Shown: in pieces, positions 14,446 through 33,053 of the stretch
Numbering within the stretch: the stretch's first letter is position 1
Layout of the letters: every line of letters starts with the position of its first letter
DNA from: a bacterium
GTDB taxonomy: Bacteria > Verrucomicrobiota > Kiritimatiellia > CAIKKV01 > CAIYGI01
Direction of reading: 5' to 3'
Assembly (NCBI GenBank): GCA_025360745.1
Contig: JANYBP010000123.1
Location: 1-36,482 of the forward strand
DNA length: 36,482 bases
Notes under the pieces: generated by a model
What the model was told of the DNA's origin: nothing
What the model saw: the letters and a program-made list of their open reading frames with translations, nothing else
Databases searched by the model: none
Made by a program: the position numbers and the translations under genes

Positions 14446-15438
14446 ATGAACAATTATCCTGAAGTTCGCTTGCGGCGCTTGCGGCGCACGCCCGCGCTGC
14501 GGCGCATGTTCGACATGCCGGCGCCGGGGCCCGAGAAGTTTATGTGGCCTGTGTTCGTCAAGGCCGGCACGGGGGTGCGGGAACCGATCGACGCCATGCC
14601 CGGACAAAGCCGGATGAGCGCCGATGTCCTGATCGAAGAGCTGGAGCGCGTGGTGGACATGGGCATCGGGAGCATCCTCGTCTTCGGTCTGGTTGACGGC
14701 GCGAGCAAGGACGGCTCCGGCAGCGCGGCCTATGACGAGCGCGGCGCCGTGCAGCAGGCGATCAGGAAGATCCGGAAAAAATATCCGGACCTGGTGATCG
14801 CCTCGGATGTATGCGTGTGCGCCTACACCTCCCACGGCCACTGCGGCCCTTTGACGAAATCCGGCGAGGTCGACAACGACGCCTCCAACGCCGTGCTGGC
14901 GAAGATGGCGGTTTCGCATGCGGCGGCAGGCGCCGACATGGTGGCGCCCAGCGCCATGATGGACGGCCAGGTTTCCGCCATCCGCAAGGCGCTCGATGCG
15001 CGGGGATTTCAACAGACAGTGCTGATGAGTTATTCGACCAAGTTCGCTTCGGGCATGTACGGTCCGTTCCGGGAGGCGGAGGAGTCGGCGCCGCAGAAGG
15101 GCGACCGCCGGGGTTACCAGGCCTCCTTCGCCAACCCGCGCCAGGCTTTGCGCGAGTCCCGGCTCGATGAAGCGGAAGGCGCCGATATCCTGATGCTGAA
15201 GCCATCGCTGTTCTACCTCGACATCCTCGCCCGCCTGCGCGACCGCACGGACCTGCCGATCGCCGTCTATAACGTCAGCGGCGAATATGCCATGCTGATC
15301 GCCGCCGCGGAACGCGGCTGGGGCGATTTGAGCGCCATGGTTCGCGAGTCCACCATCGCGCTCACCCGCGCCGGCGCCGATCTGATCATCTCCTACTGGG
15401 CGAACCGTTATGATGAGGTGATAGGGGGAAGGCGCTAG
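14446..15438 (+). CDS. hemB: Delta-aminolevulinic acid dehydratase (porphobilinogen synthase)
   Basis: A 330-residue enzyme condensing two 5-aminolevulinate molecules to porphobilinogen. Signatures: RRLRRTPALRRMFDMP, FVKAGTGVREPIDAMPGQSR, the zinc-type cysteine site DVCVCAYTSHGHCG, the first Schiff-base lysine in MSYSTKFASGMYGPFREA and the second in LMLKPSLFYLDIL, then YNVSGEYAML. Three cysteines in the metal site suggest zinc dependence. The start at 14446 is set by GAGGAA upstream. It supplies the triple-fusion protein encoded 0.6 kb upstream. Confidence 0.97.
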   Translation: MNNYPEVRLRRLRRTPALRRMFDMPAPGPEKFMWPVFVKAGTGVREPIDAMPGQSRMSADVLIEELERVVDMGIGSILVFGLVDGASKDGSGSAAYDERGAVQQAIRKIRKKYPDLVIASDVCVCAYTSHGHCGPLTKSGEVDNDASNAVLAKMAVSHAAAGADMVAPSAMMDGQVSAIRKALDARGFQQTVLMSYSTKFASGMYGPFREAEESAPQKGDRRGYQASFANPRQALRESRLDEAEGADILMLKPSLFYLDILARLRDRTDLPIAVYNVSGEYAMLIAAAERGWGDLSAMVRESTIALTRAGADLIISYWANRYDEVIGGRR

Positions 15439-15655
15439 GTGTGAGGTGGAAGGTTGAAGGTGGAAGAATGGGTCAACTCGGATCTTTTTTAAGTCTGTTA
15501 GAAACTGAATGAGTTGCACATAGAGCCAAAATTGAATCAGTTGTCTGAAATTTCCCGGTAATTTTAGGAGTCATTCCAATGGCAAAGCACAACCACCCGC
15601 CACCTTCCACCCTCCACCATCCACCCTCCACCTCGCGCCTCCCACCTGCCTCCTC
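15435..15655. repeat. Inverted heptamer arrays flanking the hemB-hemL junction
   Basis: Left array (about 15437-15469) is imperfect AGGTGGA heptamers on the plus strand; right array (about 15596-15655) is the same type inverted (CCACCTT, CCACCCT, CCACCAT). Between them are about 126 AT-richer bases holding the hemL ribosome site and start. The right array lies inside hemL and encodes a Pro/Ser/His-rich N-terminus. The left array begins at the hemB stop codon. Confidence 0.8.
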
Positions 15656-19822: not shown

Positions 19823-20833
19823 ATGTCCCTTAAACGGATCAGACTCAGTCATGTTGCGAAAGACGGACGCGCGCGCATGGTCGACGTCAGCGGCAAGCGC
19901 GTGACCCAACGCACCGCCCGCGCCGAGGCTGTGGTCCGTCTGGGGACCGGCCTCGTCGCGCGCTTGAAAAAGACGGGCGGCGGGCGCAAAGGCGATCCCG
20001 TGGAGACCGCCCGCATCGCCGGAATTATGGCCGCCAAGCGCGCCTCCGAATTGATCCCGCTCTGCCATTCCCTGCCGCTCGACCTCGTTGACGTTCAGGT
20101 AACGTTCGGCGGGAACTTCCTGCGCATCGAATCGCTGGTGCGCACCAGTCATGTTACCGGGGTCGAAATGGAAGCCCTGACCGCCGCGGCTGTCGCGGCG
20201 CTCACGATCTACGACATGTGCAAGGCCGCCGACAAGGGCATCGTCATCGAACGGATACAGCTTCTGGAAAAGACGGGCGGGAAATCCGGGGACTGGAAGA
20301 AGAGGAAGGGTCAAGGGTCAAGGGTCAAGGGCCAAGGGTCAAGGGTCAAGGGTCAAGGGTCAAGGGGGGAGCACGGAATGACTTATAGTGGATTGGATGG
20401 ATTCGGAGCCTATCGGAAGTCACTGGAGCTTTTCGATCTGGTGGTTGAGGACATGGTCCTGCTCCAGAAAGACACACGTTGCTACCGGCTGATTTCACAG
20501 CAGGTTGGCAGCGCCGACTCAATCTCCGCAAACATCGAGGAAGGCTATGGACGTCTGAGCAGGCGTGAATACGTCCGATTCCTGGACTTTGCTCGCGGTT
20601 CGGCGCGGGAAACACAGGGCCGCTACGGACGCATGAAACACTGGCTGGGGCAGGAAGTGGTATCGCATCGTATGTCGCTATGCGGTGAAGTCATCGCGAT
20701 TTTGACAAGTTCAATCAGAAGATTGCAGTCGGACATCGAAAGTCGAGCACATACCGTCAATGAGCCCGTCACCGAGTACGGCGACGCCTCGCCCTCGTCA
20801 CTTGCCCCTCAACCCTTGCCCCTAGACCCTTGA
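19823..20833 (+). CDS. moaC: MoaC in frame with a four-helix-bundle (23S IVS-type) protein
   Basis: The first 160 residues are a complete cyclic pyranopterin monophosphate synthase: MVDVSGKRVTQRTARA, IAGIMAAKRASELIPLCHSL, RTSHVTGVEMEALTAAAVAA, YDMCKAADKGIVIERIQLLE, ending at KTGGKSGDWKKRK where MoaC proteins normally stop. Instead of a stop codon the frame runs through eight GGGTCAA-type heptamers (protein repeat GSRVKGQ) into a four-helix-bundle protein, to 336 residues in all. The heptamer in this direction has no stop in any frame, which explains the read-through. The stop at 20831-20833 lies in an inverted heptamer array. MoaC should fold normally; the tail may be translated as a fusion, separately from 20378, or both. 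Confidence 0.9.
   Translation: MSLKRIRLSHVAKDGRARMVDVSGKRVTQRTARAEAVVRLGTGLVARLKKTGGGRKGDPVETARIAGIMAAKRASELIPLCHSLPLDLVDVQVTFGGNFLRIESLVRTSHVTGVEMEALTAAAVAALTIYDMCKAADKGIVIERIQLLEKTGGKSGDWKKRKGQGSRVKGQGSRVKGQGSRGEHGMTYSGLDGFGAYRKSLELFDLVVEDMVLLQKDTRCYRLISQQVGSADSISANIEEGYGRLSRREYVRFLDFARGSARETQGRYGRMKHWLGQEVVSHRMSLCGEVIAILTSSIRRLQSDIESRAHTVNEPVTEYGDASPSSLAPQPLPLDP
20308..20363 (+). repeat. Left heptamer array, eight GGGTCAA units
   Basis: Eight tandem heptamers (20308, 20315, 20322, 20329, 20336, 20343, 20350, 20357); the fourth unit reads GGGCCAA. They follow the natural end of moaC and precede the four-helix-bundle gene. G runs spaced by four bases fit a G-quadruplex-forming pattern. Read 5'-3' it is open in all three frames. 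Confidence 0.97.
20378..20833 (+). CDS. Four-helix-bundle protein (S23/23S rRNA intervening-sequence family), internal start
   Basis: If started at the ATG at 20378, this gives a 151-residue protein. A GGGGGGAG ribosome site lies seven bases upstream, so independent translation is plausible. The sequence matches the four-helix-bundle family found in 23S rRNA intervening sequences and related to the Avd accessory protein: AYRKSLELFDLVVEDMVLL, LISQQVGSADSISANIEEGY, REYVRFLDFARGSARETQ. The function of chromosomal copies is not established; RNA or nucleic acid binding is assumed. It is bracketed by inverted heptamer arrays and sits in frame behind moaC. Confidence 0.85.
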   Translation: MTYSGLDGFGAYRKSLELFDLVVEDMVLLQKDTRCYRLISQQVGSADSISANIEEGYGRLSRREYVRFLDFARGSARETQGRYGRMKHWLGQEVVSHRMSLCGEVIAILTSSIRRLQSDIESRAHTVNEPVTEYGDASPSSLAPQPLPLDP

Positions 20834-20843
20834 CCCTTCCCCC
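20801..20843 (-). repeat. Right heptamer array, inverted relative to the left one
   Basis: On the minus strand this reads as imperfect AAGGGTC heptamers, that is the same GGGTCAA unit inverted. It supplies the C-terminal residues and the TGA stop (20831-20833) of the moaC/four-helix-bundle frame, and ends directly at the ATG of the next gene, leaving that gene without an obvious ribosome site. Confidence 0.9.
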
Positions 20844-21800
20844 ATGACCGCACTTATCGAAAGCATTTGTACAAGCGAAAGAAAAGGCGAACGCAAACGC
20901 GGCGTCCCCTCCGTCCGCCTGCTCGCGAATCACGGCATCGAAGGCGATGCCCATGCCGACGCCTGGCACCGGCAGATCAGTATCCTGGCCGCGCAGGATG
21001 TCGAGGACATGCGCCGGAAAGGGCTGCCGAAGCTCAAGGCCGGCGATTTCGCGGAAAATCTGGTTGTTTCCGGTTTGGACCTGACCAAGTTGGGCTTGGG
21101 CAGCCGGCTGCGAATTGGGAGCTCCGCGGAGCTGACCGTGACCCAATTAGGCAAGGTCTGCCATGCGCGCTGCGCCATCTACGAGCAGGCCGGCGACTGC
21201 ATCATGCCGCGTCTCGGTGTTTTTGCGCGGGTCATCGCGGGCGGAACGATCGCCGCCGGCGATGGCGTCGAAATAGTCGAAACGATTCCGCGCGAGACCT
21301 TCCAGGCCGTCGTCCTGACCGTCAGCGACCGCTGCTCCCGCGGCGAGGCGACGGATACGGCCGGACCGGCGGTGGCGGAGCGTGTGAAGAACATACTCAA
21401 GGCCCACATATACAATGTTTGTATAGTGCCGGACGAACAGGCCGAAATCGAAAACGCCCTGCGCCATTTCGCGGACGGCCATTCGATAGATCTTGTGTTG
21501 GCTGTGGGCGGGACGGGATTCGCGCCGCGCGACGTTACGCCTGAAGCCGTGGCCGCCGTGGTCAAACGACGCACTCCTGGTCTGGACGAGGCCATGCGCC
21601 GCGCCTCGGCGGAAAAAACTCCGCACGCCATGCTGTCGCGCGCCGTCTCGGGAATCCGCGGCGCCACCCTGATCGTCAGTCTGCCCGGTTCGGAGCGGGC
21701 GGCCATCGAAAATCTGGATGCCGTGCTGCCGGCGCTCGCTCACGGCCTGGCCAAACTGCGCGGCGATCCGGGCGATTGCGGACGCCCTGGCATCGGTTAA
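20844..21800 (+). CDS. MOSC domain fused to MogA/MoaB molybdopterin adenylyltransferase
   Basis: 318 residues. The N-terminal 145 are a MOSC domain (GIEGDAHADAWHRQISIL, KAGDFAENLVV, GKVCHARCAIYEQAGDC, MPRLGVFARV) with the conserved cysteines thought to handle sulfur or bind Moco. Residues 152-318 are MogA/MoaB-like (VVLTVSDRCSRGEATDTAGP, VLAVGGTGFAPRDVTPEA, SRAVSGIRGATLIVSLPGS), which adenylates molybdopterin before MoeA adds the metal. This fusion is a known architecture. The start codon abuts a heptamer array and has no clear ribosome site, so it may rely on coupling to the upstream stop. Confidence 0.92.
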   Translation: MTALIESICTSERKGERKRGVPSVRLLANHGIEGDAHADAWHRQISILAAQDVEDMRRKGLPKLKAGDFAENLVVSGLDLTKLGLGSRLRIGSSAELTVTQLGKVCHARCAIYEQAGDCIMPRLGVFARVIAGGTIAAGDGVEIVETIPRETFQAVVLTVSDRCSRGEATDTAGPAVAERVKNILKAHIYNVCIVPDEQAEIENALRHFADGHSIDLVLAVGGTGFAPRDVTPEAVAAVVKRRTPGLDEAMRRASAEKTPHAMLSRAVSGIRGATLIVSLPGSERAAIENLDAVLPALAHGLAKLRGDPGDCGRPGIG

Positions 21801-31168: not shown

Positions 31169-31193
31169 CAGGGAGTCGCGGTGTGGCCGCTCA

Positions 31194-31282
31194 GGGGGCA
31201 GGGTTCGGGGGTCAGGGTTCACGGGGCAGGGGGTAGGGTTCGGGGTTCAGGGTTCAGGGCGGGGTTCAGGGTTCAGGGGGAG
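31194..31282 (+). repeat. GGGTTCA-type heptamer array between mqnL and menG
   Basis: About twelve imperfect heptamers on the plus strand (GGGTTCG, GGGGTCA, GGGTTCA, CGGGGCA and similar). On the coding minus strand it reads TGAACCC units, which contain TGA: the mqnL stop codon (31266-31268) lies inside the array. The other end runs into the region before menG. Runs of GGG spaced by four bases allow a G-quadruplex on the plus strand. Confidence 0.9.
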
Positions 31283-33053
31283 GGGCGATGCCGTAAGACT
31301 CCCAGCGCTGGACGACTTGGCGGGCGCGCTCGGGATCGAAGGCTACGGGTTGCCGGTAGCCCGGCTTCCAGGTCGCATCGATGGCAATCGGGAAGTGCAG
31401 GATCAGCCGGTTCCCTTCCACGACACGGCGGGCCGGGTAGAGGTCGGCCAGCGGATCGAAGCGCGTGAACCAGCCCCACAGCACCAGGCAGGGGTCATGC
31501 ACCGGAACGTCCTCGGAAACCAGGACGTGGAAGAGGTAATCGCGGGTGGCCGGGTGCCGCGCGAGCGCCTCGCGGATCGCCGCCTTGTCGGCGTCCGGCG
31601 CCACCTGGGCCACCAGGAACGCCGCGCCGACGGCCGCCAGCGCGCGGATACCCGGCGCGACGGATGCGGGCGGCGGCGGGGCGGGGGGCGGTTGCGTCCT
31701 CAGTTTCGGCCGGTCGCCGCGGGTGGCCAGCAGAATCAAACGACTGCCGGTGTTCATGGCCGGGCCCGTGAAATCCAGCGTGTCCTGGGCCGTCGGCGCC
31801 AGCAGGTGGAGCCCTTCGGCTGCATCCAGGTTTTCCCAGACCGCGCGGCTGACGTCGGCGAAGCGGCGCACGTTGACCTCCCCGTCCACCACGATCAGGA
31901 CCTTGGTCAGCGATAGTTGTCCCTCGCCCAGCACACCCAGCGCGTGCTTGAGGGCCTCGCGCGGATAGCGCTCCCGCACGGAGAGCACCGACAGCGGGTG
32001 GAAGCCGGTTTCAGGGTAGGCCCAGATATCGGCGATCGCCGGACGCAGCAGTTTGAGCAGCGGGAGGGTCAGTTCCTGCAGCGCGCAGCCGATGAAATAA
32101 TCCTCCTGCGGCGGCTTGCCGACGACGGTGGCCGGGTAAATCGCGTCGCGTCGCGCCAGCAGGCGGGCCACGCGGAAAACCGGGAAGCGTGCGCTGTGCG
32201 AGTAATGTCCCAGATGGTCGCCGAAAGGACCCTCCTGCCGCAACTCGCCGGGCGTCACCGAACCCTCCAGCACGAATTCGGCCCGCGCCGGAACGCGGTG
32301 GCCGGTGGTCGAACGGCGGATCACGTCCAATGGCCGGCCCATGATCAGCGCGGCCAGCAGTCGCTCGTCGATGCCCTCGGGCAGCGGCGCGATGGCGGCC
32401 AGTGTGAGCGCGGGGGGTCCACCAAGAATTACGCTGACCGGTAGCGGTTCGCCGCGCTCGCAGGCCGCCTGAAAATGGAATCCGCCGCCTTTTTCGATCT
32501 GCCAGTGCATGCCCGTGCAACGGTCATCGAAGCGCTGCAGCCGGTAAATGCCGAGGTTGCCCACGCCCGTGCGCGGGTCCGTGGTATGCACCAGGGGCAG
32601 CGTGAAGAACGGGCCGCCGTCGAGCGGCCAGCATTTCAGCACGGGCAGCCGGTCGAGTTGCGGCGGCTCAAAAACCCGGTCCAGAACCGGCCCGCCGCGC
32701 ACGCCGCGCAGTCGCACGCCAGCCAGATTCCACAAACTCTTGCGGGCGGACCATAGCGCGCGCGCCGAGGGCGGCATCAGACGATGGGCCAGTCCCGCCA
32801 CCTCTCCGCCGATCTCCGCGGGCGGACGCCCGAACGCCATGGCCACGCGCCGGGGCGTGCCGAACAGGTTGCTGACCAGCCGGTAGGGCGAGCCCTTGAC
32901 GTGTTCGAAGAGCAGGGCCGGCCCGCCGGCGGCCAGCACGCGATGCTGGATGATCGCGATCTCCTGGTCGGGATCGACTTCGCAGGCAACCCGGAGCAGT
33001 TCGCCCCGGGCTTCGAGCAGGGTCAGGAAGGAACGCAGGTCGGTCAGGCTCAT
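31266..33053 (-). CDS. mqnL: UbiD-family decarboxylase (MqnL)
   Basis: 595 residues of the UbiD family, which uses prenylated FMN made by UbiX-type enzymes. Seen: LRSFLTLLEARGELLRV, FGTPRRVAMAFG, VGNLGIYRLQ, the UbiD motif EGPFGDHLGHYS, and PQEDYFIGCALQELTLPLLK. In the futalosine pathway MqnL decarboxylates the prenylated 1,4-dihydroxy-6-naphthoate. The start at 33053 overlaps the mqnM stop by four bases. A Pro-rich linker (PPPAPPPPAS) splits the protein before its C-terminal part. The last residues PPPEP and the stop are read from a heptamer array. Confidence 0.93.
   Translation of the reverse strand: MSLTDLRSFLTLLEARGELLRVACEVDPDQEIAIIQHRVLAAGGPALLFEHVKGSPYRLVSNLFGTPRRVAMAFGRPPAEIGGEVAGLAHRLMPPSARALWSARKSLWNLAGVRLRGVRGGPVLDRVFEPPQLDRLPVLKCWPLDGGPFFTLPLVHTTDPRTGVGNLGIYRLQRFDDRCTGMHWQIEKGGGFHFQAACERGEPLPVSVILGGPPALTLAAIAPLPEGIDERLLAALIMGRPLDVIRRSTTGHRVPARAEFVLEGSVTPGELRQEGPFGDHLGHYSHSARFPVFRVARLLARRDAIYPATVVGKPPQEDYFIGCALQELTLPLLKLLRPAIADIWAYPETGFHPLSVLSVRERYPREALKHALGVLGEGQLSLTKVLIVVDGEVNVRRFADVSRAVWENLDAAEGLHLLAPTAQDTLDFTGPAMNTGSRLILLATRGDRPKLRTQPPPAPPPPASVAPGIRALAAVGAAFLVAQVAPDADKAAIREALARHPATRDYLFHVLVSEDVPVHDPCLVLWGWFTRFDPLADLYPARRVVEGNRLILHFPIAIDATWKPGYRQPVAFDPERARQVVQRWESYGIAPPPEP

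Follow-up and report, generated by a model that had tools for sequence, protein, structure and literature searches.

Mirrored heptamer arrays enclose four-helix-bundle genes in a likely one-gene mobile cassette

A gene of the four-helix-bundle family PF05635/TIGR02436 lies between mirrored arrays of seven-letter units in a 36,482-nucleotide stretch of a Kiritimatiellia genome (contig JANYBP010000123.1 of assembly GCA_025360745.1; hereafter the window). We conclude, with a probability of about 0.7, that the mirrored arrays and the gene constitute one cassette, which is likely a mobile element that carries a single gene and ends in fold-back arrays. This reading draws on the mirrored arrays themselves, on the similarity of array units in close protein relatives, on filled and empty sites, and on array pairs that hold pieces of the gene.

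The insert between moaC and the MOSC gene

The mirrored-array insert spans positions 20308–20843 and occupies precisely the interval separating moaC from a MOSC gene (Table 1). An earlier note on this DNA, made from the sequence alone, had placed the inserted gene in frame behind moaC, and this is borne out, with open reading frame 19823–20833 forming a single frame of 336 aa that contains MoaC (E 8e-49) and PF05635 (E 4e-14). Comparison of C-termini puts the native end of moaC near WKK, the ends in relatives being WKRDA followed by a stop, or GVWKAG... The note had also described eight GGGTCAA units at the end of moaC and an inverted array of the same unit closing the insert; the eight-unit array is there, with one unit that differs from the other seven, and the closing array (about 20801–20843) is indeed inverted but degenerate, containing a single exact TTGACCC unit and being far less regular than the left array. 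At up to two mismatches, GGGTCAAGGGTCAA has 12 matches in the window, whereas 100 dinucleotide shuffles average 0.16 matches and never exceed 2, and no exact doublet of GGGTCAA was found in the rest of the assembly. Alignment of the upstream flank of the insert with its reverse-complemented downstream flank gives a score of 28.

Table 1 Features of the insert locus and of a second cassette in the window
Feature	Position	Strand	Evidence or context
moaC part of the fused frame	19823..20307	+	Pfam MoaC, E 8e-49; C-termini of relatives
Left array of eight 7-bp units (GGGTCAA seven times, GGGCCAA once)	20308..20363	+	
Purine tract GGGGGGAG followed by an in-frame ATG (20378) at which the insert gene may start separately	20364..20380	+	Sequence
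Insert gene, 151 aa, four-helix bundle, PF05635/TIGR02436	20378..20833	+	Domain at about 20408-20728
Right array, inverted degenerate heptamers, TTGACCC-like	20801..20843	-	
MOSC/MoCF protein gene, start directly after the right array	20844..21800	+	
Second, decayed cassette, inverted AGGTGGA/CCACCTT arrays	15416..15654		Between ALAD and class-III aminotransferase genes

The insert passes the curated cut-offs of both family profiles (PF05635, 53 bits vs 33.8; TIGR02436, 62 vs 24), and PF05635 is its only Pfam match, with no Y1 tyrosine transposase encoded alongside the repeats. Among search candidates that excluded longer fusions, stand-alone homologues are similar in length to the insert protein, the best being 78% identical, and the protein also matches PDB 2gsc (E 2.5e-6), a solved structure of the four-helix family that carries the name XCC0516. 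Judged from the sequence, the in-frame ATG behind GGGGGGAG could allow translation of the separate 151-aa product. The right array doubles as coding sequence, providing the protein tail PLPLDP and the stop of the fused frame (TGA, 20831–20833); array-like tails, such as PLPLDPRPS, occur in several homologues of the insert protein and look array-encoded. The suggestion that left arrays are by design free of stops while right arrays supply one did not generalise, as 47 of 94 period-7 units are stop-free on the strand reading into the gene, compared with 51.6 for shuffled units.

A PF05635 profile search of the same genome returned 12 matches. Eight shorter genes (L001–L008, with L003 interrupted by an in-frame stop) all lie between inverted period-7 arrays (8/8, scores 21–34), the units being of six types: TCAGAAG-like in three cases, and GAGCGGG, AGGGTGG, GGTCAAG, GAATGTT and GATGAAC in one each. 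Two further matches belong to a double-domain gene at a contig end without an array pair, and the last two (L011 and L012) are 4helix_suffix proteins (TIGR04258) with inverted period-9 arms.

Mirrored flanks across the family

The own genome, its relatives and 80 named records yielded 187 domain hits at 179 loci (183 distinct). Of these, 173 hits had enough flank, equivalent to 172 genes since L003 counts twice as two pieces; the sampled genes are the best-scoring hits of each search and therefore a non-random set. Upstream flanks were scored against reverse-complemented downstream flanks with a threshold of at least 16, which was reached by 110/173 hits (109/172 genes) compared with 6/289 control windows of equal geometry displaced by 1100 bases and 5/518 mismatched flank pairs. 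A clear inverted pair at this threshold is missing from the other 63/172 genes. The proposal of a mobile cassette with array ends thus gained ground from the flanks of other family genes, both in the own genome and elsewhere. In the named set, 47/77 reached the threshold, and these come from 13 named phyla plus two records for which no phylum was read. The family was found in 37 of the 39 genomes searched (relatives and the own genome), and the ten plasmid copies read among 29 records all have inverted arrays at a score of at least 14 (nine at least 16; period 7 in nine).

Among the 123 genes scoring at least 14, the array period is 7 in 93, 8 in 17, 6 in two, 9 in one, 10 in one and unclear in nine. 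Read on the strand leading into the gene, the units are low in C (12%) and high in G (37%). L250 (G008) and L257 (G004) are two close family copies with period-6, ATCGTA-like arrays. Mapped on the protein tree, the array period changes 15 times compared with 20 times when shuffled; this weak clustering indicates that the protein does not strictly set the period, and a unit length fixed by the protein was accordingly rejected. The order of unit variants is mirrored between arms overall (Stouffer z 8.1; 9/68 loci at p ≤ 0.05), a value biased upwards by the choice of arms through alignment, and no mirrored order was seen in the arms of the window itself (z −0.38). Exact conserved end motifs of the TCAGAAG elements were also examined and were unconvincing. 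Across 10 genomes, array density was not significantly related to the number of family genes (rho 0.32, p 0.36), and two genomes with many family genes (G032 and G026) had zero period-7 arrays in the sampled stretches. A search of one family protein against phages gave no match.

Stretches apart from any family gene in the own genome hold 28 period-7 arrays in 392 kb. Such frequent gene-distant arrays would be expected if polymerase slippage generated heptamer arrays independently and family genes merely persisted where arrays are common, and slippage is among the explanations discussed in the available text of PMC4692102. We regard this as very unlikely. Slippage, or insertion of a gene into an existing array, should yield flanks in direct orientation, whereas 110 of the 173 hits reach the threshold in inverted and 21 in direct orientation, and shifted control windows rarely show inverted flanks at all. 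Of the 28 gene-less arrays, 18 are within one mismatch of units found around the family genes of the same genome, a number equalled by 44 of 2000 random foreign unit sets, which represents a modest excess of own units. Elsewhere in the window, positions 31191–31284 contain a G-rich period-7 array (CAGGGTT-like) with no mirrored partner detectable nearby.

Short-unit arms were also observed in two further families. Genes for GxxExxY proteins (TIGR04256; L111–L140, own genome and relatives) have inverted repeats of 8–10 bp, for example CGCAAAGA and ACACGGATGA; 25 of the 28 with a located motif, among 30 fetched, score at least 16, an uncontrolled count that includes at least two cases resembling palindromes more than arrays. 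The 4helix_suffix genes (L048–L077, and the own L011 and L012) show period-9 units where arms are visible, and some of their proteins have apparent in-frame 9-bp repeats within the protein (SDLSDKSD). Arms at 6/29 of these loci score at least 16, one of them (L056) being a palindrome without an array, against 2/166 in the null set.

Array units follow the protein

Unit distances were calculated at the best rotation for 94 period-7 hits, leaving out pairs that share outer flanks. The mean distance is 3.2–3.5 below 55% protein identity, 2.65 at 55–65% (69 pairs) and 1.50 at 65% or more, where the 12 pairs occupy different sites. None of 2000 permutations of the units reached the observed mean (675 pairs at 45% identity or more; relatedness ignored). 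Six of the 12 close pairs come from a single four-gene group (L001, L002, L030 and L032), in which L030 shares 84% DNA identity with L001 and 78% with L002 and has a nearly identical unit, while the fetched flanks do not match. The arrays therefore likely travel with the gene, since closely related proteins encoded at different sites come with similar units; the slippage explanation does not predict units that follow the protein to new sites. The heptamer of the window is not a shared end sequence, the unit varying from locus to locus.

Filled and empty sites

moaC was located in 13 of the 39 genomes; outside the own genome it stands unfused in every case (12/12), including G028, where a family gene lies just upstream of it. 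In G003, the moaC stop overlaps the MOSC start (ATGA) and the cassette is absent, giving an empty moaC–MOSC junction; the MOSC protein there is 67% identical to that of the window over 150 aa. The C-terminus of this moaC (L080) contains CGCAAAGACGCAAAGA, which resembles a remnant of a GxxExxY-type 8-bp array. In the same-genus genome G001, moaC ends normally and the downstream genes differ from those of the window. An apparent Phd/PIN-type toxin–antitoxin pair, identified by reading alone, follows moaC there (L079), which suggests that the downstream junction of moaC is a tolerant insertion site.

Reciprocal differences were found between Nostoc plasmids, where flanks of L318 and L322 share 93–99.7% identity: a TCAGGAG cassette in L318 corresponds to GGTTCTAGGTTATG at the matching site of L322, and a GGGAAAA cassette in L322 corresponds to GAGGTAATGGG at the matching site of L318. 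These filled and empty sites fall exactly at stop/start codon junctions. Of nine such loci compared at junction J2, three are filled, five are empty and one holds another gene; J3 is filled in 1/9. J1 has gene-less TCAGGAG arrays in 5/9 (two-armed in 2) and none in 4. A further case comes from Calothrix, with a cassette between nrdB and nrdA in L314 and none in L333. The presence of the cassette at some sites and its absence from matching ones in related plasmids make it likely that the cassette is mobile, and the empty Nostoc sites read are free of arrays, which also argues against slippage. Filled and empty sites alone do not give the direction of change; the filled ones probably represent gains. 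As Nostoc cassettes of the same kind leave the stop codon of the upstream gene in place, the fusion to MoaC looks incidental. A candidate clean empty site for L002 in G001 was rejected, its flanks lying on two broken contigs.

The cassettes do not conform to a classical insertion sequence with its fixed terminal inverted repeats and constant target duplication. J3 has ATG on both sides of the cassette and J2 has no clear duplication, a constant target duplication was not seen, and both unit and arm length vary by locus. Four-helix cassettes were also observed inside CRISPR-Cas operons of cyanobacterial plasmids (L315, L319 and L320), between cas6 and cas4 and between cas10 and cmr3. This may explain why the family is named in a survey of CRISPR systems, where a figure legend, in the portion of PMC10910872 available, mentions the 23S rRNA IVP.

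Several cassettes thus lie at junctions inside operons, which is one reason to consider that the mirrored arms act in RNA. Once the operon is transcribed, they would form a long hairpin open to cutting by RNase III-like enzymes; the insert would thereby be isolated or removed, sparing the host operon from harm, and the gene would be a selfish passenger. The insert belongs to the same protein family as the protein of 23S rRNA intervening sequences (S23/IVP), which likewise have one open reading frame between inverted repeats and a sporadic presence, and intervening sequences with terminal inverted repeats are described as excised by RNase III in excerpts of PMC4990558. The arms of the window cassette are also paired in the predicted RNA fold (z −4.1). 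RNA-level cutting leaves unexplained the tandem-array form of the arms and the array pairs without a gene. It also fits poorly with the cassettes of L314 and L317, which run opposite to their neighbours, and none of the 18 array-poor or weak family loci scanned had an rRNA match. We consider it a tenable but somewhat improbable account of the cassettes by itself; much of what was observed is compatible with it, and it could operate alongside movement. The known intervening sequences are located in rRNA helices, with a stem of 28 bp in one described in the same excerpts, whereas the present cassettes lie between protein genes (moaC and MOSC in the window) and have tandem arrays as arms.

Decay and exchange of cassettes

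The second cassette of the window (Table 1) appears as a decayed counterpart of a complete one. In G001 the corresponding family gene is uninterrupted, and the alignment of the two loci takes in both flanks and the 3′ end of that gene. The interior comprises 66 bases in the window against 480 in G001, about 410 bases being missing. The interior also matches the 5′ end of the gene weakly (score 13.5, compared with a shuffle maximum of 12.0 in 200). Gene pieces kept between arrays, with different parts missing, were found at L307, L285 and L289, and array pairs without a family gene, like the cassettes, occupy some sites and are missing from others. At one site shared by the own genome and G001 (L007 and L225), the family genes are only 17% identical and the units differ, while three further common sites have the cassette in place (L003, L005 and L008).

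Proposed mechanism and mobilising enzymes

Under the mobile-cassette reading, the two array ends would pair by folding back, in line with the paired arms of the window cassette in its predicted RNA fold, and the encoded protein is predicted to recognise them, perhaps binding the arrays as a DNA or an RNA hairpin. Insertion could proceed by capture of the folded single strand through short homology. Host replication or repair enzymes would presumably help, since searches gave no reverse transcriptase match for the own genome and none to a Y1 transposase for G025, a genome that has such a cassette. Cassettes would later lose the gene, leaving paired heptamer arrays. To our knowledge, the family has no known catalytic residues, and its protein may not be the sole mover.

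In REP/REPIN-RAYT systems, a gene is accompanied by paired inverted repeats, and numerous derivatives that lack the gene are scattered over intergenic sites. Both traits resemble those of the present cassettes, which differ in having no Y1 transposase inside and an array unit that varies from element to element. A host-encoded RAYT-type Y1 transposase could nevertheless move the cassettes in trans by hairpin recognition, with the four-helix gene as cargo, and Y1_Tnp matches are present in 35/39 genomes. We find this unlikely given G025, an assembly of 95% completeness that has a cassette with arrays (L031, score 22.5) and no Y1_Tnp match. G031 (88% complete) also lacks a Y1 match, and the family gene there is without a clear array pair. 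The copy numbers of the two genes are weakly related (rho 0.31, p 0.056), and units vary among loci within one genome, unlike the single site expected of a single transposase.

Least probable of all is that the cassette is copied via RNA by a mutagenic reverse transcriptase of the type found in diversity-generating retroelements. The accessory protein Avd of these elements is a four-helix-bundle protein, its homology to the family being stated in the consulted part of PMC10053308, and the NCBIfam model DivGenRetAVD matches one own copy at 1.7e-6, under its cut-off. However, the own genome (G000; assembly 93.6% complete) has 0 matches to the reverse transcriptase profile PF00078 and in this respect does not conform to a diversity-generating retroelement. 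There are likewise none in G001, G022, G029 and G032, and the profile is absent from 15/37 family-bearing genomes (own included), among them the three richest in copies. A reverse transcriptase acting in trans was rejected on the lack of a match in G001, G032 and G029, the genomes with most family genes.

Known systems and implications

Drosophila foldback (FB) transposons have ends made of long inverted arrays of short tandem repeats and an optional internal gene. The family cassettes share with foldback-type elements the mirrored tandem-array ends, as well as sites found both filled and empty (G003 and the Nostoc plasmids); FB elements are eukaryotic and have other proteins. The mirrored array ends of foldback transposons are already known, as is the tie of the family protein to a selfish rRNA insert. 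According to the part of PMC4990558 consulted, which cites Burgin 1990 and Ralph & McClelland 1993, intervening sequences have long been proposed to be selfish or mobile, with the open reading frame serving mobility.

Heptameric repeats have been described in several bacteria: GGGAATC in Xanthomonas, GGGGATT in Nostoc, GGACCGG and MTYCTGA in Geobacter, and TAACTGA in Beggiatoaceae. In our data, GGGAATC arms surround a four-helix gene in two Xanthomonas (L143 and L146). Two Xanthomonas species other than these sources have 70 and 75 mirrored GGGAATC pairs according to the accessible text of PMC4692102, which also states that heptameric repeats are over-represented in bacteria, with causes only proposed, and that 90% of the Xanthomonas repeats lie between the same genes in two species; most arrays there are hence old and not active. 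Paired 7/8-mer sites on opposite strands in Geobacter were described as regulator sites (PMC2700814, as far as available). In the sections available, the heptamer papers treat the arrays as repeats or regulator sites, unlike the gene-bearing cassettes reported here. The terms helix bundle, four helix and S23 are absent from the searched text of PMC4692102 and PMC4679880, and no report tying this family to heptamer arrays was found in the searchable portion of the open-access literature (subscription papers and preprints being outside it).

Taken further, the data could, at even odds, define a new class of mobile element without a transposase, whose ends are specified by mirror symmetry and period and not by sequence, whose four-helix-bundle protein is a specificity factor co-diverging with the unit, and which inserts at stop/start junctions and decays to the paired heptamer arrays found in high numbers in some bacterial genomes. 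The 23S intervening sequences would then be its rRNA branch, and the 4helix_suffix (period 9) and GxxExxY (8–10) genes its sister branches.

Linking heptameric repeats to one gene family gives them a concrete source and makes the idea testable through a protein with its cognate repeat and through the Nostoc plasmid sites, filled or empty, and a mobile cassette would account for the seven-letter repeats reported in several bacteria. It also suggests a possible purpose for genes annotated as 'S23 ribosomal protein' or 'four helix bundle protein', and a reason why family genes occur inside operons such as cas6–cas4, cas10–cmr3 and nrdB–nrdA.
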